Part shown: piece after piece, positions 4,462 to 48,251 of the stretch
How the letters are laid out: each line of letters opens with the position of its first letter
How positions within the stretch are numbered: position 1 is the first letter of the stretch
Assembly (NCBI RefSeq): GCF_000178835.2
Contig: NC_015275.1
Coordinates: 1,075,001 to 1,139,000, forward strand
DNA from: Cellulosilyticum lentocellum DSM 5427
GTDB taxonomy: Bacteria > Bacillota > Clostridia > Lachnospirales > Cellulosilyticaceae
Length of the DNA: 64,000 bases
Direction: 5' to 3'
Program-made: the position numbers and the translations under genes
Notes under the pieces: model-generated
The model's input: only the letters and a program-made list of their open reading frames with translations
Databases searched by the model: none
What the model was told of the DNA's origin: nothing

Positions 4462-5949
4462 ATGCTTAGAGCAATTTATGAAAATATACAAGGTGGACAC
4501 GAGGTTAGAAAAAATCTTATAGAACTTAAAAAGCTATTAAAAGAAGAAAGTAATCGTATGGCTTTTATTTATTATTTAGCAGGTAGTTATACACTTTTAT
4601 ACAAGCTATTAGAAGATGAAGATGCTAAAGTGCGTAAAAATACAGCCTTAATTATGGGAGAATTAGCAGTACCTGAATTTGTTGATAAGCTTTTTGAAGC
4701 CTATATAAAGGAAGATAAGCTTTTTGTTAAAGGAGACTATCTAGTGGCGCTAAGTCATTTAGATTATCGTCATTTGCTTGAAGAATTGAAGGAACGTTTA
4801 AGTTTTTTAACAACTAGTAACTTTGAAGAAACAAGTATGAAACATATTCATGAAGAAATGAAGATACTTACTAATATGATTTTAGATATAGAAAGACCTG
4901 AAGGGCATACTTTCATGGGATATGATGAATTATCGGATTTGATTTTACTTACTAATAGAGATCACCAAGATATTACTTTAGAACAAATTCACCAAGGCAA
5001 CAAAAGGATTTTTAATGCAGGGGTATTAGTACGAACAAAAGATCTAAAAGAAATATTAAGTATTCGAACTTATTCAGAATTACTTTTTCGATTAAAAGAT
5101 GTAGCCACTGTTGTAAATGACCCAACAGAAGCGGCAATGGCCATATATAAAGGTGGTTTATTAGCATTTTTAACTAAAAGACATACAGGAGAATTGCCTT
5201 ATTATTTTAGATTAGAGATAAAAACTAAAATGCCTCTAGATAAGAAAAGTGCTTTTGCCAAAAAATTGGCTTTCGAGTTAGAAAAAGCATCAGATAGAGC
5301 ATTAATTAATTCTACCTCAAATTATGAAGTGGAAATTAGGTTAGTTGAAAATAAAGAAGGGCAGTTTAATGTACTTCTTAAGCTTTATACCATTAAAGAT
5401 GAGCGTTTTGAATATAGAAAGCATGCAGTAGCAGCTAGTATTCAGCCAGTAACGGCAGCCCTTGTAGCTAAAATTTCTGAGCCATATTTAAAAGAAGGGG
5501 CACAGGTATTAGACCCATTCTGTGGAGTAGGCACAATGCTGATAGAACGTCATAAGTTAGTTCCAGCAAATCCAATGTATGGTATTGATTTATTTGGAGA
5601 AGCCATAGATAAGGCAATTATTAATGCCAAAAGAGCAGAGACTGTTATTAACTTTATAAATCGTGATTTCTTTGACTTTACACATAATTATTTATTTGAT
5701 GAAATCTTTACCAATATGCCAACTCGTGGAGGCAGAAAATCTGAACAAGAAATGGTAATGCTATATCATGAGTTTTTTAATAAGGCATTGAGTGTATTAA
5801 AGAATGAAGCTGTAATAATTATGTATACAAGAGATAAGAGTTTAGTATTGAAAGAAGTAAGTAGTAGAAGTCAATGTACAGTGCTTGAAGAATATGCCAT
5901 CTCTAAGAAAGAAGATGCTTATCTTTACATTATAGGGATTAATCAATAA
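4462..5949 (+). CDS. HEAT-repeat / TRM11-like SAM-dependent methyltransferase fusion
   Basis: 495 residues. Residues about 1-170 are helical, with HEAT-like repeats (KLLEDEDAKVRKNTALIMGEL). The middle part (about 170-320) resembles the RNA-binding region before TRM11/RlmL-type methyltransferases. The C-terminal Rossmann domain has motif I DPFCGVGTM (from D351) and a variant motif IV NMPTRGGR (from N418) in place of NPPYG. Known relatives methylate guanine N2 in tRNA or rRNA, so an RNA target is likely; the N/D-P-P-Y variant leaves the exact chemistry open. It has an ATG start with AAGGAG and stands alone between intergenic regions. Confidence 0.75.
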   Translation: MLRAIYENIQGGHEVRKNLIELKKLLKEESNRMAFIYYLAGSYTLLYKLLEDEDAKVRKNTALIMGELAVPEFVDKLFEAYIKEDKLFVKGDYLVALSHLDYRHLLEELKERLSFLTTSNFEETSMKHIHEEMKILTNMILDIERPEGHTFMGYDELSDLILLTNRDHQDITLEQIHQGNKRIFNAGVLVRTKDLKEILSIRTYSELLFRLKDVATVVNDPTEAAMAIYKGGLLAFLTKRHTGELPYYFRLEIKTKMPLDKKSAFAKKLAFELEKASDRALINSTSNYEVEIRLVENKEGQFNVLLKLYTIKDERFEYRKHAVAASIQPVTAALVAKISEPYLKEGAQVLDPFCGVGTMLIERHKLVPANPMYGIDLFGEAIDKAIINAKRAETVINFINRDFFDFTHNYLFDEIFTNMPTRGGRKSEQEMVMLYHEFFNKALSVLKNEAVIIMYTRDKSLVLKEVSSRSQCTVLEEYAISKKEDAYLYIIGINQ

Positions 5950-6021
5950 AGCCTGGGTATATCATAGTAATTATGCAGAGTTTAGAATTATCAAGATGGA
6001 GTAGTATTTAAAATAAATATA

Positions 6022-6069
6022 AGGGTAAGGTAGTATGAAAGATAATTTCCATAAGGCCTTACCCTGTTT
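6022..6069 (+). terminator. Long hairpin, probable terminator of the methyltransferase gene
   Basis: AGGGTAAGG pairs with CCTTACCCT (6057-6065), with an inner ATGAAA/TTTCCAT stem, then GTTTT. The T run is short. The rest of the 315-base gap after the gene is AT-rich and holds only the promoter below. Confidence 0.55.
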
Positions 6070-6151
6070 TATGTGCCAATGACTAGAAGTGGATAGCTTT
6101 GTGTACTAGGAATATCAATTAATAAAATACGTATTATATTAATTGAATAAT

Positions 6152-6179
6152 TTGATTGATATAAAATACATAATATAAT
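6152..6179 (+). promoter_or_regulatory. Possible promoter for the RDD protein gene
   Basis: TTGATT (6152-6157), 16 bp, TATAAT (6174-6179) in a very AT-rich stretch, about 85 bp before the start codon. The composition makes chance matches easy. Confidence 0.4.
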
Positions 6180-6264
6180 ATAAAAAATAGTTAAAACATG
6201 GTAAAATAATCTAATAACAAATAAAGCAGTATAAACAGATTAATACTTATAGGGGAGATTAGAG

Positions 6265-7053
6265 ATGAAATGTGAATATTGTGGGAGAACATGCTTACCA
6301 GGGGAAGTAACCTGTGGAGGATGTGGGGCACCCATAGAAAATCCAATACCAGTACCAGAGATTAGACAAACTCAAGGCTCAAATATAGAAGTGAATGTAG
6401 GTGGCATTAATATTAAGATTAATGGACCTACAAGTACTACTATGGGGGGAACAGTAGGTGGGATCACTTCGACTACTACAGTTGATTCTATGCCAAATTC
6501 TGTAACGAATGATATAAAAAACACTGCAGTTAATCCTATACTACCAGTAGGATATGAAACAAGAAGACAGAGAAAACAAAGAGAAGTAGCTGAACGTTAC
6601 AGGTTACAAAGAGAGCAAGAAGAATTAAGAAAAAACCAAGCAATGGGAAAACAACAAGACTTAAAGTATGTTCGAGGTGTTTTTGCAGGTGTTTTTTCTA
6701 GAGGAATAGCTATTTGGATTGATATGTGGATAGTAAGTACTTTATTGGCAATAATTATAGGCGTAACAGATAAGATATATGCTCAAGAGACAGTAATGCT
6801 AATTGTAATTACTTATTTTATGGGTTTTGAAGTATTTAATAAGGGTACTACCATTGGGAAGCGAGCTATGAAAATACGTGTTGTTAATGCAAATGGAGAA
6901 AAAATTACATTACTTCAAGCACTAATACGATTTGTCTCTAAGTTCTTGTCCATGGGCTTTGTCTTTATAGGTTTTATAATGATTGGACTTTCTGCGCAAA
7001 AGCAAGGGTTACATGATTGCATTGCTAATACTTATGTGATTAAAGACCGTTAG
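6265..7053 (+). CDS. Zinc-ribbon RDD-family membrane protein
   Basis: 262 residues. The N-terminus is a zinc ribbon with C3-x2-C6 and C17-x2-C20. A low-complexity, Gly/Thr/Asn-rich linker (about 30-95) and a charged helical stretch (ERYRLQREQEELRK) follow. The C-terminal 120 residues are an RDD domain: RGIAIWIDMW, the TIGKRAMKIRVV motif after the second membrane segment, and KQGLHDCIANTYVI at the end. RDD proteins are multi-pass membrane proteins, some linked to ion exchange. A cytosolic zinc ribbon on an RDD protein suggests binding to a partner or nucleic acid, but the function is unknown. The start has a GGGGAG site. Confidence 0.8.
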   Translation: MKCEYCGRTCLPGEVTCGGCGAPIENPIPVPEIRQTQGSNIEVNVGGINIKINGPTSTTMGGTVGGITSTTTVDSMPNSVTNDIKNTAVNPILPVGYETRRQRKQREVAERYRLQREQEELRKNQAMGKQQDLKYVRGVFAGVFSRGIAIWIDMWIVSTLLAIIIGVTDKIYAQETVMLIVITYFMGFEVFNKGTTIGKRAMKIRVVNANGEKITLLQALIRFVSKFLSMGFVFIGFIMIGLSAQKQGLHDCIANTYVIKDR

Positions 7054-7154
7054 TTTTTTTATTTACTAAAGTCCAGCTAAAACCCACATATAAGCTTAAG
7101 TTTTTGATAAATGTAATTAAGTAGAAGATAAATAGTTATTATTGGGGGCTAAAG

Positions 7155-8276
7155 ATGAGAAAATATTATATTGACCATTTAAGGACATTTCTAATTTTAC
7201 TTTTGTTTCCGTTTCATACACTGAGAATGTATACTTTAACTGAGTCCTTTTATATAGAAGGGACACCTCATATAATACCAACACTATTTATATCCATTAC
7301 ATCTATATGGTTTATGAATTTGCTTTTTGTATTAGCAGGAATGAGTACAGCTTATAGTATTCAAAAACGTTCTATAAAAGAGTATTGCAAGGAGCGTTTT
7401 TCAAAACTTCTGATGCCATTTATATTTGGAGTTGTACTTACAGTGCCTATTCAAACTTATTATGCAGAAAGATTTCATAATGGCTATACAGGGAGTTTTA
7501 TAGAACAGTACGGACTATTTTTTACAAAGATAACAGATTTAAGTGGCTATAAAGGAGGACTTACACCAGCTCACCTATGGTTTTTACTATTTTTGTTCTT
7601 GATAAGCATACTAAGTTTACCAATCATAAACTTCGTGAAGAAAAACGGAAGAAAACCTTTAAAAAAGGGTAACTTATGGAGAATGATTCCCTTGTTTTTT
7701 ATCATTCAGATTTTTAGTATCATTGAGATTGGTGAAAGAATTGGACAGTATATGACTTATTTTATAATAGGCTTCTTGGTGCTTTCTAGAGAAGAGAATT
7801 TAGAAGAGATACAGAAAAATCAAATGCCATTAGCAATAGGAGCTATCAGCTTACTTGCAATTTCTAGTTTGTTAGATATGATGGGAGTATTAGGAAAGAT
7901 TAATTCAATAGGAATATTTAATCTATTGACAGTAGCCATCTCTGCTGTTAGGCATGCCGCTTCATGGTTAACAATATTGGCATTAATAGGGTTTGGAAGA
8001 AAATATCTAACTGGTACAAATAAAATTTTTAGTTATTTAGCAAAAGCTTCCTTTGGGATTTATTTTATTCATCAGACTGTTATTATTACTATTGGTTATT
8101 ATGTATTACCTCTCGTGCCATATAGAAGTGTGCAAAGTTTAGTGATAATGATTTTAAGTTTTATTGCTACTATAGCTATCTATGTAGTATTAAAGCGCTG
8201 CCCCGTTCTTAATACATTATTCGGGATGAAAAAAAGTCAACCAGTAAGGCTAGAGCATGTAGTTGAAATAGGTTGA
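7155..8276 (+). CDS. Acyltransferase-3 family membrane protein
   Basis: 373 residues with about ten membrane segments. The N-terminal YIDHLRTFLILLLFPFHT carries the conserved Arg and His of the acyltransferase-3 family (OafA/OpgC type), which transfers acyl groups to surface sugars across the membrane. The ATG follows a GGGGGC site. The gene sits alone between the RDD gene and the LytTR operon, so there is no hint about the acceptor sugar. Confidence 0.8.
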   Translation: MRKYYIDHLRTFLILLLFPFHTLRMYTLTESFYIEGTPHIIPTLFISITSIWFMNLLFVLAGMSTAYSIQKRSIKEYCKERFSKLLMPFIFGVVLTVPIQTYYAERFHNGYTGSFIEQYGLFFTKITDLSGYKGGLTPAHLWFLLFLFLISILSLPIINFVKKNGRKPLKKGNLWRMIPLFFIIQIFSIIEIGERIGQYMTYFIIGFLVLSREENLEEIQKNQMPLAIGAISLLAISSLLDMMGVLGKINSIGIFNLLTVAISAVRHAASWLTILALIGFGRKYLTGTNKIFSYLAKASFGIYFIHQTVIITIGYYVLPLVPYRSVQSLVIMILSFIATIAIYVVLKRCPVLNTLFGMKKSQPVRLEHVVEIG

Positions 8277-40055: not shown

Positions 40056-40475
40056 ATGGCAAGAGAATACAAGCGAGGTTATAAACAAGATAAGCCACGT
40101 AATGCAGACGGTACGTTTGCTTACTGTGAAGAGTTAGAGCAAAGACAAATAGACATGATCCATGAACTTATAAGCAACGGAGGACACAAGACTAAAGCAT
40201 GTGAGACATTAGGTATTCCTAGAAGTACTTTGTACAAGTGGCTAGATAATGAGAAGTTTAAGAAAGCTTATCAAACAGCATGTGAAAGATTGTACGAGGA
40301 AGGATTGTCGGATGCTATTAAAACTACGTTAAAGCTGATGAAGTGTCAAGATAGCAGAACAGCATTAAAGGCTTGTGAGAACATTATGAAGCTAAATGGA
40401 TACTTAGACACGAAAGTAGACGTAACGCAAAACCCTAGCGAAATTGTTATCACACTGGCGGACAGTAACGATTAG
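40056..40475 (+). CDS. terS: Terminase small subunit
   Basis: 139 residues. A helix-turn-helix (NGGHKTKACETLGIPRSTLYKWLDNEKFKKAYQ) near residue 50 recognises the packaging site; the helical C-terminus (AIKTTLKLMKCQDSRTALKACENIM) is for oligomerisation. ATG behind AAAGGATGTGAG. The large subunit follows 690 bases later, after a non-coding stretch and the Prp-like gene. Confidence 0.83.
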   Translation: MAREYKRGYKQDKPRNADGTFAYCEELEQRQIDMIHELISNGGHKTKACETLGIPRSTLYKWLDNEKFKKAYQTACERLYEEGLSDAIKTTLKLMKCQDSRTALKACENIMKLNGYLDTKVDVTQNPSEIVITLADSND

Positions 40476-40535
40476 ATGTTACGTAACTCTTCGCGATAGC
40501 TTTCTTTAGCGAATAGTAACATAAAGAATATGAAA

Positions 40536-40575
40536 GAGTGTAGCCTTTGATAGTCATTGGTTGCGCTCTTTTATT
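40536..40575 (+). terminator. Terminator after terS
   Basis: GAGTGTAGCC pairs with GGTTGCGCTC (with G-U pairs), then TTTTATT. A second inverted repeat (ATGTTAC ... GTAACAT, 40478-40522) precedes it. Confidence 0.6.
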
Positions 40576-40873
40576 ATGTTTAGCACACTATGAATTAGTT
40601 TTCGTTTTTATCGTTTTAATATAAAAGTAACACTGCTACTAAACAAAATAGCATATTGGCGAAGATGGTGTGTGCGTAGATGGGGTACACCACCCTTGAC
40701 ATATGACTGGGGCGGGCGAATAGTTGCTCAAAATATTTTTACACAAAAATAACCCTAGCTATCACGCTCGTACAAGTGCCTTAGTATTTACCCTAACATC
40801 TGAACATTGAACACTATAAAACGTCTATACGACGCTCACAATTAGCGAGAGACACGAAAGAAGGTGATACATT
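40576..40873. other. Non-coding region between terS and the Prp-like gene, with a GC-rich block
   Basis: About 300 bases without a supportable gene. The part at about 40655-40725 is clearly richer in G and C than its surroundings (GGGGTACACCACCC, then ACTGGGGCGGGCG) and contains a small inverted repeat TGGTGT/ACACCA. Its place between the terminase genes makes it a candidate packaging (cos or pac) site; no cut can be located. Confidence 0.4.
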
Positions 40874-41173
40874 ATGATAACAGCAATTATACGAGATGAT
40901 GGCTTTAGAATATATGGCCATGCTTGTTATGCTCCTAGTGGCCAAGATGTGGTGTGTGCTGGGGTGAGTGCTTTAATTGGTGCAGCCTTGCAGATGCTTG
41001 ATTGGATGATTAACGAGCAGGACAAAACTAAAGGATTAATAGATGTTACAGTGAGCAATAGTAATTATGGTGACAGGTTAGACGCTGTTATTTTAATGCT
41101 ATATTACGGACTATTAAACATACAACAACAGTACTCGAACTATCTAAGCGTGGTGATTGACACATGGAATTAA
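40874..41173 (+). CDS. prp: Prp-like cysteine protease encoded by the phage
   Basis: 99 residues, the size of ribosomal-processing protease Prp. GHACYAPSGQDVVCAGVSALIG gives catalytic His16 and Cys28, 12 residues apart as in host Prp. Host Prp removes the N-terminal extension of ribosomal protein L27 after LQFF, and in some staphylococcal phages also trims scaffold and capsid. Here the scaffold and major capsid proteins both carry that motif, so this protease probably matures the phage head. ATG behind AAAGAAGGTG; it overlaps the large terminase gene by ten bases. Confidence 0.85.
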   Translation: MITAIIRDDGFRIYGHACYAPSGQDVVCAGVSALIGAALQMLDWMINEQDKTKGLIDVTVSNSNYGDRLDAVILMLYYGLLNIQQQYSNYLSVVIDTWN

Positions 41174-42402
41174 AACTAGACCCACAAATATTCAATGATG
41201 CTTATTTGCCTTACTTGTTCGACTACTCTCACCGTTATGAGTGCTACTATGGTGGTGCCGGTTCCGGTAAGTCGCACTTTGTTTGGCAAAAGCTAGTTCT
41301 TAAAGCTCTTAAGAGTAAGAGAAAAATACTTGTAGTGAGAAAAGTAGGCAATACTCATAGAGATAGTACTTTTCAAATGTTAAAAGATACCCTTAGTTTT
41401 TTTAAGATTTACGATCAATGCAAAGTGAATAAAACAGATATGACTATAGAGCTGATGAACGGCTCTATTTTTATTTTCAAGGGTATGGATGATGACCAAA
41501 AAATAAAGTCTATTGCTAACATAACTGATATTTTCTATGAAGAGGTTACAGAGGGTGCACTTGATGAGGTATCTCAACTTGATTTACGTCTAAGAGCAAA
41601 AGTTGATAATTTACAAATGTACTTTGCCTTTAACCCTGTAAGTAAAGATAACTTTGTGTACAAGTACTTTCACAGAGATGACCCTGATACTACTCCGAGT
41701 AATATGTTCGTGCTTAAGACTACATTTAAGGACAATAAATTCTTACCACAGTCTTACATTGACTCATTAATGGCTATGAAAGATAGCAATCCAATCTATT
41801 ACAAAATCTATGTAGAAGGTGACTTTGCTACACTTGATAAGCTTATATTTGCCTATGAGATTAAAGACTTTGATTGGCGTGAGAAGCTTAAAACTGGAAT
41901 CGCTTGTTTTGGCATGGACTTTGGATATACTAATGACCCCGCTGCATTCAGTGCCTTTGTAGTAAATGAAGATCAGCGTGAGATATGGATATTTGATGAA
42001 ATATACAAAAAGGGACTATTGAATAATCAATTAGCTGCTGAAATCATATATCATGGTTTTCAAAAAGAAGTTATTACAGCAGATTGTCAAGACCAACAAA
42101 GTATAGATGAACTTAGAACACAGTATGGTATAAGTCGAATTAAAAGAAGTTGGAAAGGTAAAGGGTCAGTACTTCAAGGTATACAGTACATTCAACAATT
42201 CAAGATATATGTGCTTCCTAGCTGTGAAAATCACATTATGGAGTTTAGCAATTACAGTTGGAAGAAGAATAAACAAACAGGTGAGTATACTAATGAACCG
42301 ATTGATAAATTTAATCACTTAATGGACGCTATGAGATATGGTATTCAGAAGGTGAGAAAAGGTAAAGTTAAAACGCTTAATAAAGCAGTATTAGGATTGT
42401 AA
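41164..42402 (+). CDS. terL: Terminase large subunit
   Basis: 412 residues. ATPase with Walker A GGAGSGKS (YYGGAGSGKSHFVW), the adenine/coupling region VVRKVGNTHRDSTF, and Walker B ITDIFYEEV. The RNase H-like nuclease follows with FGMDFGYTNDPAAFSAF and EVITADCQDQQSIDEL; both acidic motifs are present. This is the PBSX/phage terminase family that packages DNA into the prohead. Confidence 0.95.
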   Translation: MELKLDPQIFNDAYLPYLFDYSHRYECYYGGAGSGKSHFVWQKLVLKALKSKRKILVVRKVGNTHRDSTFQMLKDTLSFFKIYDQCKVNKTDMTIELMNGSIFIFKGMDDDQKIKSIANITDIFYEEVTEGALDEVSQLDLRLRAKVDNLQMYFAFNPVSKDNFVYKYFHRDDPDTTPSNMFVLKTTFKDNKFLPQSYIDSLMAMKDSNPIYYKIYVEGDFATLDKLIFAYEIKDFDWREKLKTGIACFGMDFGYTNDPAAFSAFVVNEDQREIWIFDEIYKKGLLNNQLAAEIIYHGFQKEVITADCQDQQSIDELRTQYGISRIKRSWKGKGSVLQGIQYIQQFKIYVLPSCENHIMEFSNYSWKKNKQTGEYTNEPIDKFNHLMDAMRYGIQKVRKGKVKTLNKAVLGL

Positions 42403-42414
42403 AGGAGGTGACAA

Positions 42415-43749
42415 ATGTTTACTTGTAGAGGTGAATTAACGCTAGATTTAATTAGAAAATATATAGAATTATTCAGGGCACAAGAATTACCACGCTTGAA
42501 AAAGCTAGAGCGCTACTATAAAGCCAAGAATGATACAATCATTAATCGTACATTCGAGGACGCTAGTAAGCCTAACAACAAATTAGCTCATGCTTATGCT
42601 GCTTATATCACAGATACACTATCGGCGTACATGGTAGGTAAGCCGGTATCTTATTCAGCGCAAGACGATATTCTAAATAGTGAAATTGCTAATATCATGA
42701 ATTATAATGACTCCGCTGACAATGACCTATCCATCGCTGAAAGTCAAAGTATTTACGGTAGAGCCTATGAAGTCATGTATGTTGATGAAGATGGTCATAC
42801 AAGGTTTAAATGCCTAAATACTTTAGAGAGTGTTCCGGTTTACGATGGCACTGTAGAGAATAACATGAAATACTTTATCCGCTACTGTGAGGAACAGGAT
42901 CCAGTAACTTTTGTTACTACTGTTACAGCATGGGTATATGATGATGTTGGATGTAGTGAGTATAGAGGTTTAAGCGTAGGAGATTTAAAACTTATTGATA
43001 CTGTAGAGAATGTATTTGGATATATTCAAATCAACGAATATATTAACAATAACTTTTACGAGGGTGACTTTGAAAAGGTTATTAGCTTAATAGACGCTTA
43101 CGATTTGATGTGTAGTGATACGCTTAATGAGTTGGATTATTTTAGTGATGCTTATTTACTATTTGCTAACTGTGAGATTGATACAAATAGCGTTCAGGAC
43201 ATGAAGAATAATCGTATCATTCAAGCCACCAGTGGTGATAGTGGACAAGCAGCGGTTGTACAATGGCTTACTAAAAACGCTAATGATGTGCAATGTGAGA
43301 ACACTAAGAAACGTACAGTTGATGAAATTCACAAGCTTAGTAAAGTTCCTAACCTGGACCCAAGTGCTTTTGTATCTCATACCACAGCTTCACACGTATT
43401 TTATAGTCTGCTTGCTACAGAGGATTTAGTAAGCAAGAAAGAGAAAAAATTTAAAAAAGGTCTACAGCAGAGGCTTGAAAAAATAGTACATTTGCTTAAT
43501 GTTAAAGGCATTGATACAAATTATGATTATCGTGATATTGAGATTACATTTAACCGCAACATCCCACAAGGTTTAGAAAGTATAGCAGACCCAATTAGCA
43601 AGCTTAGAGACTTGATTAGTGATGAAACATTAATCAGCCTTATTCCTGGTATTACTAACCCTCTTGAAGAACTCAAAAAACGTGATGCTCAAAGAGAAAG
43701 AGAGCGAATAGACACATCTGGAATGTTAGGTGATGACCTTGAGAACTAA
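42415..43749 (+). CDS. Portal protein (SPP1 gp6-like)
   Basis: 444 residues. RELPRLKKLERYYKAKN-like start (ELPRLKKLERYYKAKND), then NNKLAHAYAAYITDTLSAYMVGKPVSY, the usual SPP1 gp6 opening. The portal is the dodecameric DNA gate of the head vertex. The length is normal. It overlaps the next gene by 20 bases. Confidence 0.92.
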   Translation: MFTCRGELTLDLIRKYIELFRAQELPRLKKLERYYKAKNDTIINRTFEDASKPNNKLAHAYAAYITDTLSAYMVGKPVSYSAQDDILNSEIANIMNYNDSADNDLSIAESQSIYGRAYEVMYVDEDGHTRFKCLNTLESVPVYDGTVENNMKYFIRYCEEQDPVTFVTTVTAWVYDDVGCSEYRGLSVGDLKLIDTVENVFGYIQINEYINNNFYEGDFEKVISLIDAYDLMCSDTLNELDYFSDAYLLFANCEIDTNSVQDMKNNRIIQATSGDSGQAAVVQWLTKNANDVQCENTKKRTVDEIHKLSKVPNLDPSAFVSHTTASHVFYSLLATEDLVSKKEKKFKKGLQQRLEKIVHLLNVKGIDTNYDYRDIEITFNRNIPQGLESIADPISKLRDLISDETLISLIPGITNPLEELKKRDAQRERERIDTSGMLGDDLEN

Positions 43750-44527
43750 TTATTGGGAAGAAAGATTAATAGGTAATCAGTACCGCAAAGGTACAAAGCG
43801 TATGGATAAGGAAATACTTAAGATTTACAAATCAACTACTAAAGAATTACAAGCCTTAGTGAATGACTTGTGGCTTAAGATGTTGCAGAATGGCTCGGTT
43901 AGCCAATGGCAGCTTTACCAATACGGTAGATACATTGTATTACAAGATCAAATAAATAAAATACTTACAGGTTTAGGACAGCAAGAAATAAGCATAATAA
44001 ACTCACAACTACAAGCTTTATATGAAACCACTTTCACGGAATCCGCTCGTTATCTCGGCGGTGAAGGCTTAAGTGGTTCTTTTAGTTTGCTAAATCCTCA
44101 AACAGCCTATGAAGTGGCTAATGCTAACTTTAAAGGTGCTGCATTTAGTGACCGTGTTTGGAAAAGGCAAGACTTACTTAAAGAACAGCTTACAAGGGTT
44201 ATTACTAATAGTGCTGTGCTAGGTAAGGACTGGAAAAGTGTAAGTCGTGACTTGGCTAGCAGATTAGAAGTAGGCTTAAGTGATAGTAGGCGGTTAGTAA
44301 GAACCGAGACTATGCGTGTGCTTAATAGTGCAGCAATAAACAAAGCAATAGAACGAGGATATGAATACTACAGGGTGCTACTTGAAGTTGATGCTTGTGA
44401 CGAGTGTTATAGCGAGTACGAGGGTAAGCTTTTTAGCTTAAAAGGTGGAAGTCCACCACCTCTACATCCACACTGTCGCTGTTGCATAATTGTTGAAATG
44501 AATGAGGGTGAAAGAGTTGACGATTAG
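43730..44527 (+). CDS. MuF/SPP1 gp7-like minor head protein
   Basis: 265 residues. The MuF domain covers about 160-258: LASRLEVGLSDSRRLVRTETMRVLNSA, then VDACDECYSEYEGKLFSLKGGSPPPLHPHCRC, with the Cys/His set typical of the family. It is a minor head protein that goes with the portal. GTG 43730 and ATG 43733 are both possible starts. Confidence 0.9.
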   Translation: MMTLRTNYWEERLIGNQYRKGTKRMDKEILKIYKSTTKELQALVNDLWLKMLQNGSVSQWQLYQYGRYIVLQDQINKILTGLGQQEISIINSQLQALYETTFTESARYLGGEGLSGSFSLLNPQTAYEVANANFKGAAFSDRVWKRQDLLKEQLTRVITNSAVLGKDWKSVSRDLASRLEVGLSDSRRLVRTETMRVLNSAAINKAIERGYEYYRVLLEVDACDECYSEYEGKLFSLKGGSPPPLHPHCRCCIIVEMNEGERVDD

Positions 44528-44699
44528 AATTTATTTTAAAGGTAAGTGTGTTGAGGTTGTTACTGATTATGATTTTAAAGAATATGTGTCGAATATTTAT
44601 GAAGAAGAAGCAGATAACGAGTACTTGATTGCCAAAAAAGTAGATGGAAAAGAAATTGCTATCAGGTTAAGAGATATTGATTATGTAGAACAAATTTAA
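44517..44699 (+). CDS. Small hypothetical protein after the MuF gene
   Basis: 60 residues from the TTG at 44517 (GAGGGTG upstream; an ATG at 44502 is also in frame). Beta-rich (IRIYFKGKCVEVVTDYDFKEYV), no recognised family. Confidence 0.55.
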   Translation: MTIRIYFKGKCVEVVTDYDFKEYVSNIYEEEADNEYLIAKKVDGKEIAIRLRDIDYVEQI

Positions 44700-44769
44700 G
44701 CACTAGCGATTATATGAGTGAATGAGCTGTTACTAGGAGGTGGCAGAGAGTAGCTTGCTAGTGCTTTTT
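44698..44769 (+). terminator. Long-loop hairpin before the scaffold gene
   Basis: AAGCACTAGC (44698-44707) pairs with GCTAGTGCTT (44757-44766) then TTT. The loop contains a smaller hairpin and a Shine-Dalgarno-like AGGAGG, so it may be a regulated terminator that sets structural gene levels. Confidence 0.6.
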
Positions 44770-44832
44770 ATATTGTCCACCATGACGCTATAAACTGAGG
44801 AATAAGTCGAAAGACGTTAAATTGGAGGAATT

Positions 44833-45474
44833 ATGAAATTAAGAAATAGATACTTTAATACTTTTAGGACTGTAACACAGGCTGCATGGTTTAACTTACA
44901 ATTTTTTGCGGGTGAAGATGATAACAATAATGAGGATGACAAACCAGCCGAAGATAAGACTCTAACACAAGATCAAGTTAATGACATTATTGCTAAGAGA
45001 TTAGCTAAGGAAAAAGCTAAGTGGGAAAAAGACTATAATGCTAAACTAGAAGCTGAAAAAGCAGAAGCTGCTAGACTAGCTAATTTGGATGCTACACAAA
45101 GAGCAGAAGAAGAAGCTAAGAAAAGAATAGCAGCACTTGAAGAAAGAGAAGCTAAACTAAAACAAGCCGAGGACAAGTTAGAATGTGAGAATGTGCTTAA
45201 AGAGAGAGGTTTATCAACTTCTTTTGCGAACTTCTTACTTGGCGCTGATGCTGAGGTAACTTTAGCTAACATTAACAGCTTTGAAACAGCCTTTAAAGAT
45301 GCTGTAAAAGCAGAAGTAGAAACAAGAATAAAAGGCAAGACACCACCTGCCGGAGGTGGAGATAATAAAGATGATGTTGTATCTAAAGAGGATTTTAAAA
45401 AGCTTCCACTTTTCGAACAAAACAAGCTTTATTTATCTAATCCGGAACTATACAAAACCTATTATGGCGCTTAA
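44833..45474 (+). CDS. Head scaffolding protein (DUF4355-like) with LQFFA motif
   Basis: 213 residues. The N-terminal extension ends FNLQFFA (residues 20-26), the L27/Prp cleavage motif, so Prp would cut after F25. A long Glu/Lys/Ala coiled coil follows (KEKAKWEKDYNAKLEAEKAEAARL to about 115), then a C-terminal helical domain (FKKLPLFEQNKLYLSNPELY). It directly precedes the capsid gene. ATG behind GGAGGAATT. Confidence 0.88.
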   Translation: MKLRNRYFNTFRTVTQAAWFNLQFFAGEDDNNNEDDKPAEDKTLTQDQVNDIIAKRLAKEKAKWEKDYNAKLEAEKAEAARLANLDATQRAEEEAKKRIAALEEREAKLKQAEDKLECENVLKERGLSTSFANFLLGADAEVTLANINSFETAFKDAVKAEVETRIKGKTPPAGGGDNKDDVVSKEDFKKLPLFEQNKLYLSNPELYKTYYGA

Positions 45475-45513
45475 GAGGGCGCTTATTTTTATGCCAATAA
45501 GGAGGGCGATTAC

Positions 45514-46371
45514 ATGAAAAAGTTTATTACTAAAGCAAGAAATACTATTTTATCTTTACAATTTTTTGCAGACCCAACACATACACTTTATGCTAATAGC
45601 GTAATTGAGAACAAGATGACAGACTTAGTAAATACTAAGCTTGAAGCTAAGTCTTTAATGACTATTGATTACAGCTTAACCGAAGTAGCAGGTATGAAGA
45701 AAACTATTAATAAGTACACTTATTCAGGTGGTGTAGAAAAATTAGCAGCTGGTGCAAAAAATACTGATGCACAACTAGGAAAAGTTGTTTACGTTGGTAC
45801 AGATTATACAGTATCTCGTTACCAACAAACTTTTAAATATCTTGATGAAGATGTTATGAAAGACCCATACTTCTTAGATGTTGCTACCACAGGTGCTTCT
45901 ACACTCATGGCTAATCAAGTTAAGACTGAGTATTTTGCGGAATTAGCTAAGATCACAAATGCTACAACATGGCCAAAAGCATCAGCTTTTAAATATGATG
46001 ATATTGTAGATGCTTTAGCTGTGATTGATCAAGAAGTAGAAGAGGGTATGTTCGTTATTATGAATAACACTCAAAGAAAAGAAATTCGTAAAGATGCTGA
46101 TTTTAAAGCAGCTAAACAAGGTGAAATCCTCTATACTGGTCAATTCGGTACTATCGCCGGTATTCCTGTACTATTCTCAAAATTAGTACCTGCTGATACA
46201 GTTTATATCACATCAAAAGATGCTGTTAAGTTCTTTGTTAAGAAAGACGCATCTATTGAACAAGCGCGTGATGTAGAAGCTAAGAAAAATACAGTAGTTT
46301 ATGCTCGTTATGGTGTAATCGCACTAGTAGATGAAACCAAGTCTATTAAAATGACAAAAGCTACAGCTTAA
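45514..46371 (+). CDS. Major capsid protein (HK97 fold) with LQFFA motif
   Basis: 285 residues. The N-terminus reads ILSLQFFADPTH (LQFFA at 15-19), predicting removal of 18 residues by Prp. After it comes the HK97-type body, including YTVSRYQQTFKYLDEDVMKDPYFLD, FVIMNNTQRKEIRKD, GTIAGIPVLFS and VVYARYGVIALVDE near the end. There is no separate delta domain; the scaffold is its own gene. Codon use here is more biased than in the rest of the phage, as expected for its most abundant protein. Confidence 0.92.
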   Translation: MKKFITKARNTILSLQFFADPTHTLYANSVIENKMTDLVNTKLEAKSLMTIDYSLTEVAGMKKTINKYTYSGGVEKLAAGAKNTDAQLGKVVYVGTDYTVSRYQQTFKYLDEDVMKDPYFLDVATTGASTLMANQVKTEYFAELAKITNATTWPKASAFKYDDIVDALAVIDQEVEEGMFVIMNNTQRKEIRKDADFKAAKQGEILYTGQFGTIAGIPVLFSKLVPADTVYITSKDAVKFFVKKDASIEQARDVEAKKNTVVYARYGVIALVDETKSIKMTKATA

Positions 46372-47302: not shown

Positions 47303-47686
47303 GTGGTACTTATTGAACTAATAACGATACTTAAAAATGACACTATCCTAAAAACTCTTTTAAAAGCCACAGTAACAAATACTAAAATAATGCCTATGCC
47401 GCTACTAACTGATGGTATAGGCTATAATTTTATACCTTTAACAAATGATGGCATTAAAGAACAAAGTCAGTTTGAGTTAACCATTATCAACACCGACCTA
47501 CTAAGGTGTTACGAAATAAAAGAGCAGGTAGATAAATTACTTATCACGATTGGAGATACACCACTTACAAACAATATTTTAGAAGTGAGTCAAAATGGTG
47601 GTGGCTCCTATTATGATGATGATCTCAAATTTTATAAGTTAAAAGCAAATTATACTATTTTATCAAGGAGGAAATTAAATGGATAA
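47303..47686 (+). CDS. Tail terminator/completion protein
   Basis: 127 residues, alpha/beta, ending YDDDLKFYKLKANYTILSRRK. Size, fold pattern and position between the gp10-like and major tail genes fit the tail terminator. GTG start; overlaps the next gene by eight bases. Confidence 0.72.
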   Translation: MVLIELITILKNDTILKTLLKATVTNTKIMPMPLLTDGIGYNFIPLTNDGIKEQSQFELTIINTDLLRCYEIKEQVDKLLITIGDTPLTNNILEVSQNGGGSYYDDDLKFYKLKANYTILSRRKLNG

Positions 47687-48251
47687 ATTGGCAGATACAA
47701 CAGAAGTTACACTCGGTAGTGGCGATTTATATATGCAACTTTATGCAAATGCTATACCGGAAGACGCGGAGTTGGAAGTAGATGCAAATTGTGTGGCACA
47801 TATTGATAGTGGCGCAACGCTTAAGTATGGGGTTACTTATAAAGATGTAGAGGATTCCAAGGGGCAAGTGGTAAAGAGCTTTATTACGAAAGAAGATGTT
47901 ACATTCGGTACTGGAATTTTATCTTGGAATGGTGACGTAATTGCAATGCTTTGCGAAACTGCTAGAGTAACAACAACACCGGCCACAGCAGAAGCTAAAG
48001 GTAAACGTGTTACTAAAATTGGTGGTCGTGATAACGCTAATGGTAAGTATTATGTTATTCGCTTTAGACACAAAAAGGATGATGGTTGCTATATTCGTGT
48101 GACAATCAAGGGTAAGAATACAGCAGGATTCAGTCTACCTTTTGAGAAAGAAAACGCTACTGTAATTGATGCTGAGATCAAGGCATTTGCACAAGATGCA
48201 GAGGGTACATTAGTAATTATAGAAGAAGAATTACCACAATTAAGTGCTTAA
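47679..48251 (+). CDS. Major tail protein
   Basis: 190 residues, beta-rich: DKLADTTEVTLGSGDLYMQLY, then KVVKSF-type strands and FRHKKDDGCYIRVTIKGKNTAGFSLPF near the middle. It forms the tail tube. AGGAGG before the ATG; a strong terminator follows. Confidence 0.85.
   Translation: MDKLADTTEVTLGSGDLYMQLYANAIPEDAELEVDANCVAHIDSGATLKYGVTYKDVEDSKGQVVKSFITKEDVTFGTGILSWNGDVIAMLCETARVTTTPATAEAKGKRVTKIGGRDNANGKYYVIRFRHKKDDGCYIRVTIKGKNTAGFSLPFEKENATVIDAEIKAFAQDAEGTLVIIEEELPQLSA

Follow-up and report, generated by a model that had tools for sequence, protein, structure and literature searches.

Why does a prophage carry, among the genes for its head, a protease of the Prp family, when its host encodes an enzyme of that family already? 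We addressed this question in a stretch of 64 kb (hereafter the window) taken from a genome that consists of one contig of 4,714,237 bases. A sequence-only reading had proposed that this phage matures its head with a private Prp, acting on a scaffold and a capsid protein that both carry the motif LQFFA. Comparison with other phages and hosts strongly supports this proposal: the prophage very probably encodes a dedicated C108 Prp that cuts both tags for its own head. The genes and sites concerned are the following.

40056..40475, + strand: terS, terminase small subunit (phrog_2538)
40874..41173, + strand: prp, C108 cysteine protease of 99 aa with His16 and Cys28 (PF04327, 61.6 bits; AF2 model)
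41164..42402, + strand: terL, terminase large subunit (PF04466, 205 bits)
42415..43749, + strand: SPP1-type portal protein (PF05133, 332.8 bits)
43730..44527, + strand: MuF-like minor head protein (phrog_115, 163.4 bits)
44833..45474, + strand: scaffold, Gp46/DUF4355, proposed substrate 1 (PF14265, 109.7 bits; phrog_172)
44896..44910, + strand: LQFFA codons, scaffold residues 22-26, predicted cut between F25 and A26
45514..46371, + strand: major capsid protein, proposed substrate 2 (phrog_544, 84.3 bits; PF05065 slightly below cut-off)
45556..45570, + strand: LQFFA codons, capsid residues 15-19, predicted cut between F18 and A19, predicted mature start ADPTHT; untagged relatives start near here

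The protease and its neighbours in the window

The genes follow the order terS, prp, terL, portal, MuF-like, scaffold and capsid, and terL begins 10 nt inside the end of prp. The prp locus is contained in an IMG/VR provirus (L004, 35,300 bases), which corresponds by offset to about positions 22472-57771 of the window. The 398 bases between terS and prp (40476-40873) hold no + strand ORF of at least 60 aa, and might harbour a promoter or a packaging site.

The 99-residue protein at 40874, with its H16 and C28, is an ATG ORF located as described from the letters alone, and the coordinates and residue numbers of that description are all correct. It matches PF04327 (Peptidase_Prp) with 61.6 bits against a Pfam cut-off of 27, and also PHROG 4478 ('peptidase'). 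The dyad has the spacing H-x11-C, and residues G15, H16, G23, D25, C28 and A29 are invariant in an alignment of 39 phage and host Prps, with G23 and D25 as the loop L2 residues; a Ser four residues past the Cys, S32, is present as well. The AF2 model (mean pLDDT 85.8) shows the order bbabbab, which PMC9405229 gives as the C108 topology, and the PDB matches of this model at E <= 0.001 are all Prp entries (14/14). By family and predicted fold the protein is a C108/Prp protease, presumably an active one. Among nine head-region proteins scanned with Pfam, Prp was the sole protease family.

Residues 20-26 of the scaffold (PF14265, 'Capsid assembly scaffolding protein Gp46') read FNLQFFA, and residues 13-19 of the major head protein (phrog_544) read LSLQFFA, both as initially described; these are the only LQFFA sites in the window. 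At the DNA level, a degenerate pattern encoding LQFFA has two matches in the 64 kb, exactly at the N-termini of these two proteins. Since 100 shuffles gave 0.09 occurrences on average and never reached two (0/100), the pair exceeds what chance would produce. The looser motif LQxF[AST] was found in a single further place, in an antisense ORF, when the 148 ORFs with 60 aa or more were examined on both strands. We considered as a third substrate the 190-aa protein at 47679-48251, whose tail-tube identity is supposed from its position. It has MQLYA near its start and was rejected: the related phage L005 reads MMLYA there, so the motif is probably due to chance.

In the mechanism that we propose, Prp would bind the LQFFA tag at the N-terminus of each substrate, scaffold and major capsid protein, and its cut between F and A would strip 25 residues from the former and 18 from the latter. 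Head assembly would then no longer depend on the host Prp alone. We infer that the window Prp is active on both proteins, as well as the timing of the cuts and a gain for the phage, be it in supply, in timing or in independence from the host enzyme.

The host genome encodes its own separate Prp outside the window (93.2 bits), between L21 and L27, i.e., with the rplU/rpmA placement that is not found for the window gene, which sits between terS and terL. The Escherichia coli genome, used as a control, gave no Prp match. Among 299 genomes of the phylum, only the window's genome and one other (G285) had two PF04327 matches each, in a search that would miss diverged Prps; no match was found in 63 of the 299, so that loss of Prp, or its divergence past the model, may be common. 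The rarity of an extra Prp could mean that the window gene is a functionless passenger. We regard this as extremely unlikely. The comparison with L005, the nearest relative of the window prp, gives dN 0.175 and dS 0.778 (dN/dS of about 0.22), which indicates purifying selection; the identity of merely 27% between the window and host Prps shows that the gene is no recent copy of the latter; and, as shown below, prp is found repeatedly within blocks of head genes, close to tagged ORFs. Between the window phage and L005, Prp (40874-41173 and L005:8001-8300) has 72% protein identity and is far more diverged than terL (92%), scaffold (92%) and capsid (99%).

Prp in other phages and their hosts

In other phages, too, prp recurs in head gene blocks. 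A tblastn search of 50,697 phage records returned 18 records, one of which (L016) is a host-type contig with L27 and was dropped from the prp-bearing set. The portal/minor head gene position was found in Enterococcus phiFL3A, Lactococcus PLgT-1 and TP712, Brochothrix BL3 and two Latilactobacillus phages; in Dorea DO134P1, prp is directly ahead of the scaffold gene. In the scan of viral contigs, 80 of 247 loci were kept. The prp-bearing loci number at least 93, or 55 after dereplication, 47 of which have at least 3 kb of sequence downstream.

Among the loci kept, 45 of these 47 have a tagged ORF nearby and 38 have two or more, in a count that assigns no function to each ORF and that in L071 includes one upstream of prp. 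L078 and L080 fail the tag rule of this count; they carry FDIQHFDN and FDYQLFAIN. Three tagged ORFs are found in 15 of the 55 dereplicated loci. The tag lies within residues 1-50 in 103 of 645 ORFs, compared with 9 for residues 61-110. When seven scaffolds and seven capsid proteins of prp-bearing phages were aligned, the motif residues L, Q and F were invariant among few other invariant columns, and five of these capsid proteins are merely 15-25% identical to that of the window. All three tagged proteins that we tried matched major tail proteins (L013:11722-12246, LQLFA; L010:9677-10261, LQVFS; L006:10881-11375, LQLLA), so Prp may also take part in the assembly of tails.

Some loci have unusual features. 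Directly upstream of prp in L071, an ORF (5881-7944) encodes a 687-aa protein that starts with MNLQLFA and is probably a portal by position. A 73-aa mini-Prp without the middle of the domain (L068:5515-5736) adjoins the tags LQRFS and LQRFT, on a contig with unread bases. We found no clean split between host and phage Prps: a tree of 78 rows, which leaves out L004, L050, L068, L076 and L093, needs four changes and most of its forks are open. TerL was tried as a control query and abandoned, as its alignment is too diverse and a single TerL protein gave three loci.

In several phages the Prp domain continues into the scaffold within one protein. This is the case in L015 and L017, which are contigs from human faeces, and in L092, L094 and L097, with [MVI]DLQ[LM]FA at the junction of the two domains; in an alignment of five fusions, the junction residues M, D, L, Q, F and A are invariant within a variable linker. 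A second form, in L072, L142 and their copies, has FDLQLFG or HLQLFA at the junction, and a related locus, L144, has prp and scaffold as two genes with an overlap of 4 nt. In a genome scan, 20 of 39 loci were fusions, all in records named Faecalibacterium (L098-L117). Annotation is absent from all nine phage records that the fusion matched. Phage lambda also has a single gene, C/Nu3, with a protease domain ahead of the scaffold and an internal scaffold start; its protease is unrelated, and for the Prp fusions an internal start is only suggested, by a Met at the junction. This Met is present in 24/24 Faecalibacterium fusions examined, from a set of 25 in which L094 was not picked up and L092 and L098 are near copies. 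The internal start is a weak candidate: the ribosome-binding signal is uneven, with rank fractions from 0 to 0.65. On one Faecalibacterium chromosome, a fusion is broken into two frames (L337, G330:C1:2305000-2310500).

The genus Faecalibacterium provides the strongest evidence, by sequence comparison, that phage Prps work on proteins of the phage. Of 31 genomes, 30 matched PF04327, with 32 hits in total. Among these, 26 fall in open frames as long as the fusions (310-484 aa), which were read in part; the 20 fusions that were read come from partly different genomes. Of the remaining six, five are stand-alone phage Prps that precede a tagged capsid gene, and the sixth is a fusion split in two frames. 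L27 was located in 27 of the 31 genomes, with three loci unreadable. In the 24 readable ones it always starts with MAHKKGVGS, 15-18 nt past L21, with no Prp nearby, and no PF04327 hit was seen next to L27. Two other hosts, G305 and G306, have both a Prp gene and a tagged L27, the Prp of G305 being in that assembly a 68-aa ORF only. Given this short L27 and the lack of a host-type Prp, a Faecalibacterium phage Prp has neither an L27 tag that it could cut nor a host enzyme to rely on. Judging from these loci (L306-L329), the genus has apparently lost both the host-type Prp and the extension of L27, which many other Bacillota retain.

These results bear on a second proposal of the sequence-only reading, that the phage Prp may also act on host L27 during infection. 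In its strong form, the enzyme would process or mis-time L27, or compete with the host Prp, and bend translation in the infected cell. The L27 of the window's host begins MLRLDLQFFAHKK. It closely resembles the phage tags and might therefore be cut by the phage enzyme; this likeness makes cross-cleavage plausible in either direction between phage and host enzymes and tags in the window system, and together with the host's own Prp it means that the phage Prp may be redundant in this host. However, prp is located within the head gene block, in some phages Prp and scaffold form one protein, L27 lacks the cleavable extension in all 24 readable loci of a genus that hosts such phages, and the short-loop Prps described below are paired with tags unlike L27. 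Hence, action on host L27 is left unsupported, and L27 as the main target of the phage enzyme is very unlikely.

Covariation of tag, loop and protease

Relatives of the window capsid (44-62% identity) were found in seven other loci, from about five distinct phages. In the six with a readable N-terminus (all but L290) the capsid starts near the predicted cut, e.g., with MSFTGYENIVIENKMTDLVNTK compared with LQFFADPTHTLYANSVIENKMTDLVNTK in the window. These loci have no capsid or scaffold tag and no Prp in the stretches examined, which reach at least 6.5 kb upstream in four of them (L284, L285, L287 and L288). Within this lineage of capsid proteins, the tag and the protease occur together or are missing together. 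The pairing resembles that of the long L27 with cellular Prp, as described in PMC9405229.

In a second capsid family, phrog_1357, loci were fetched through the capsid protein rather than through Prp. The best 80 loci per fetch gave 59 unique capsid proteins, 51 of them with a Prp in the stretch examined; without the 8 lacking Prp and L230, whose loop is cut off, 50 rows entered the loop test. Within these best 80 loci per fetch, the P3 residue of the capsid tag is Gln in 26/26 cases where Prp has H-x11-C and in 1/24 with other loop lengths (Fisher 2e-13). The latter are paired with tags such as LRLFD, LNLFD, LHLFA and similar. In SaPrp, the loop residues Gly29 and Asp31 hold the P3 Gln (PMC9405229). 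The comparison suggests that the loop that binds the substrate Gln and the P3 Gln were lost together within one capsid family, in about three independent events. On the capsid tree three changes per trait suffice; these make three independent pairs only, so the sign test (p 0.25) cannot reach significance.

The proteases with altered loops still look like Prps. In 17 mostly short-loop sequences His, Cys and Ser are invariant, and PF04327 is matched by 16 at E <= 0.01. Their profile retrieves SaPrp from the PDB (E 2e-10), a phmmer search of the PDB with one short-loop Prp gave no Prp entry, and one member of the set has a predicted Prp fold. Scaffold tags without Gln occur with capsid tags that have it in L157, L171, L186, L204 and L206. 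Three loci of the family (L181, L196 and L218) have no Prp in at least 4.9 kb upstream, yet their capsid tags are canonical. In L181 (4896-6984), the capsid has LQLFA and the scaffold LTLFDG, outside the loop rule, with no Prp in about 6 kb upstream.

Known systems and the role of phage Prps

In the Staphylococcus phage 80α, the scaffold and the capsid protein are cut by the host Prp, for a purpose that the source calls unclear (PMC5744158). The window shows tagging of the same type, with an L27-like LQFFA motif near the N-terminus of both proteins and a cut between F and A, predicted in the window. Unlike 80α, the window phage has its own prp at 40874, and the enzymes of its relatives are fused to the scaffold or would act in a genus without host-type Prp. 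The same source reports that capsid cleavage is dispensable in 80α, that the requirement is an intact scaffold N-terminus, cleavage of which is inessential, and that the authors propose a shared chaperone (PMC5744158). By analogy, the host Prp might do the trimming in the window system, the phage Prp being mainly a tag-binding assembly chaperone or regulator for which cleavage is secondary. We consider this unlikely, since His and Cys are invariant in the 39 canonical and the 17 mostly short-loop Prps, the cut motifs are retained at fusion junctions, Faecalibacterium has no host-type Prp to do the cutting, and Streptococcus phage Cp-1 is reported to cleave its own head protein (PMC12445089). 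The reading that the phage Prp matures the head by cutting is very likely right, on the strength of head-gene position, tagged neighbours, fusions, Faecalibacterium phages and paired drift.

According to a 2025 review, the Cp-1 head protease belongs with Prp to clan CR and shortens the head protein by its first 48 residues (PMC12445089). We take orf13 to be this protease. Its similarity to Prp is weak (18.5 bits, which is below the cut-off; 92% probability in hhalign), it has a short loop, GHGDDTDQSC, and the site past residue 48 reads RINH/A, with no LQFFA tag. A short loop with a Gln-less site is in line with the loop rule. Both phages encode a C108-like enzyme by their structural genes, which in Cp-1 is reported to trim the N-terminus of the head protein, so a phage-encoded capsid protease of the C108 group is not new. 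The window differs in its canonical H-x11-C loop with G23 and D25 and in its two L27-like LQFFA substrates. The window enzyme also resembles YsxB, the cellular Prp that goes with a long L27 in Bacillota (PMC9405229), in family, predicted fold, dyad and recognition sequence; it differs in lying away from rpmA, in its proposed substrates, which are phage head proteins, and in a specificity that has drifted in some relatives. In a literature search with the main subscription papers outside its coverage, we recognised no account of a phage-encoded Prp that neighbours tagged head genes or forms a fusion with the scaffold, nor did we find, within the same coverage, a host genus without host-type Prp or the paired drift of loop and tag.

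A broader conjecture can be offered tentatively, as possible but doubtful: C108 would be mainly a family of phage head-maturation proteases, whose scaffold, capsid and tail-tube tags co-evolve with the enzyme, can leave the host specificity and in places form a self-releasing Prp-scaffold polyprotein, and the cellular Prp of Bacillota, with the odd extension of their L27, would be a protease-tag pair domesticated from a phage. In S. aureus, Prp is essential and under study as a drug target (PMC9405229). Phages that have their own Prp, a scaffold-fused one or one in a genus without host-type Prp would uncouple capsid trimming from ribosome biology, which makes the purpose of trimming directly testable. 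The short-loop Prps and their drifted tags may likewise provide a natural set of proteases of altered specificity.
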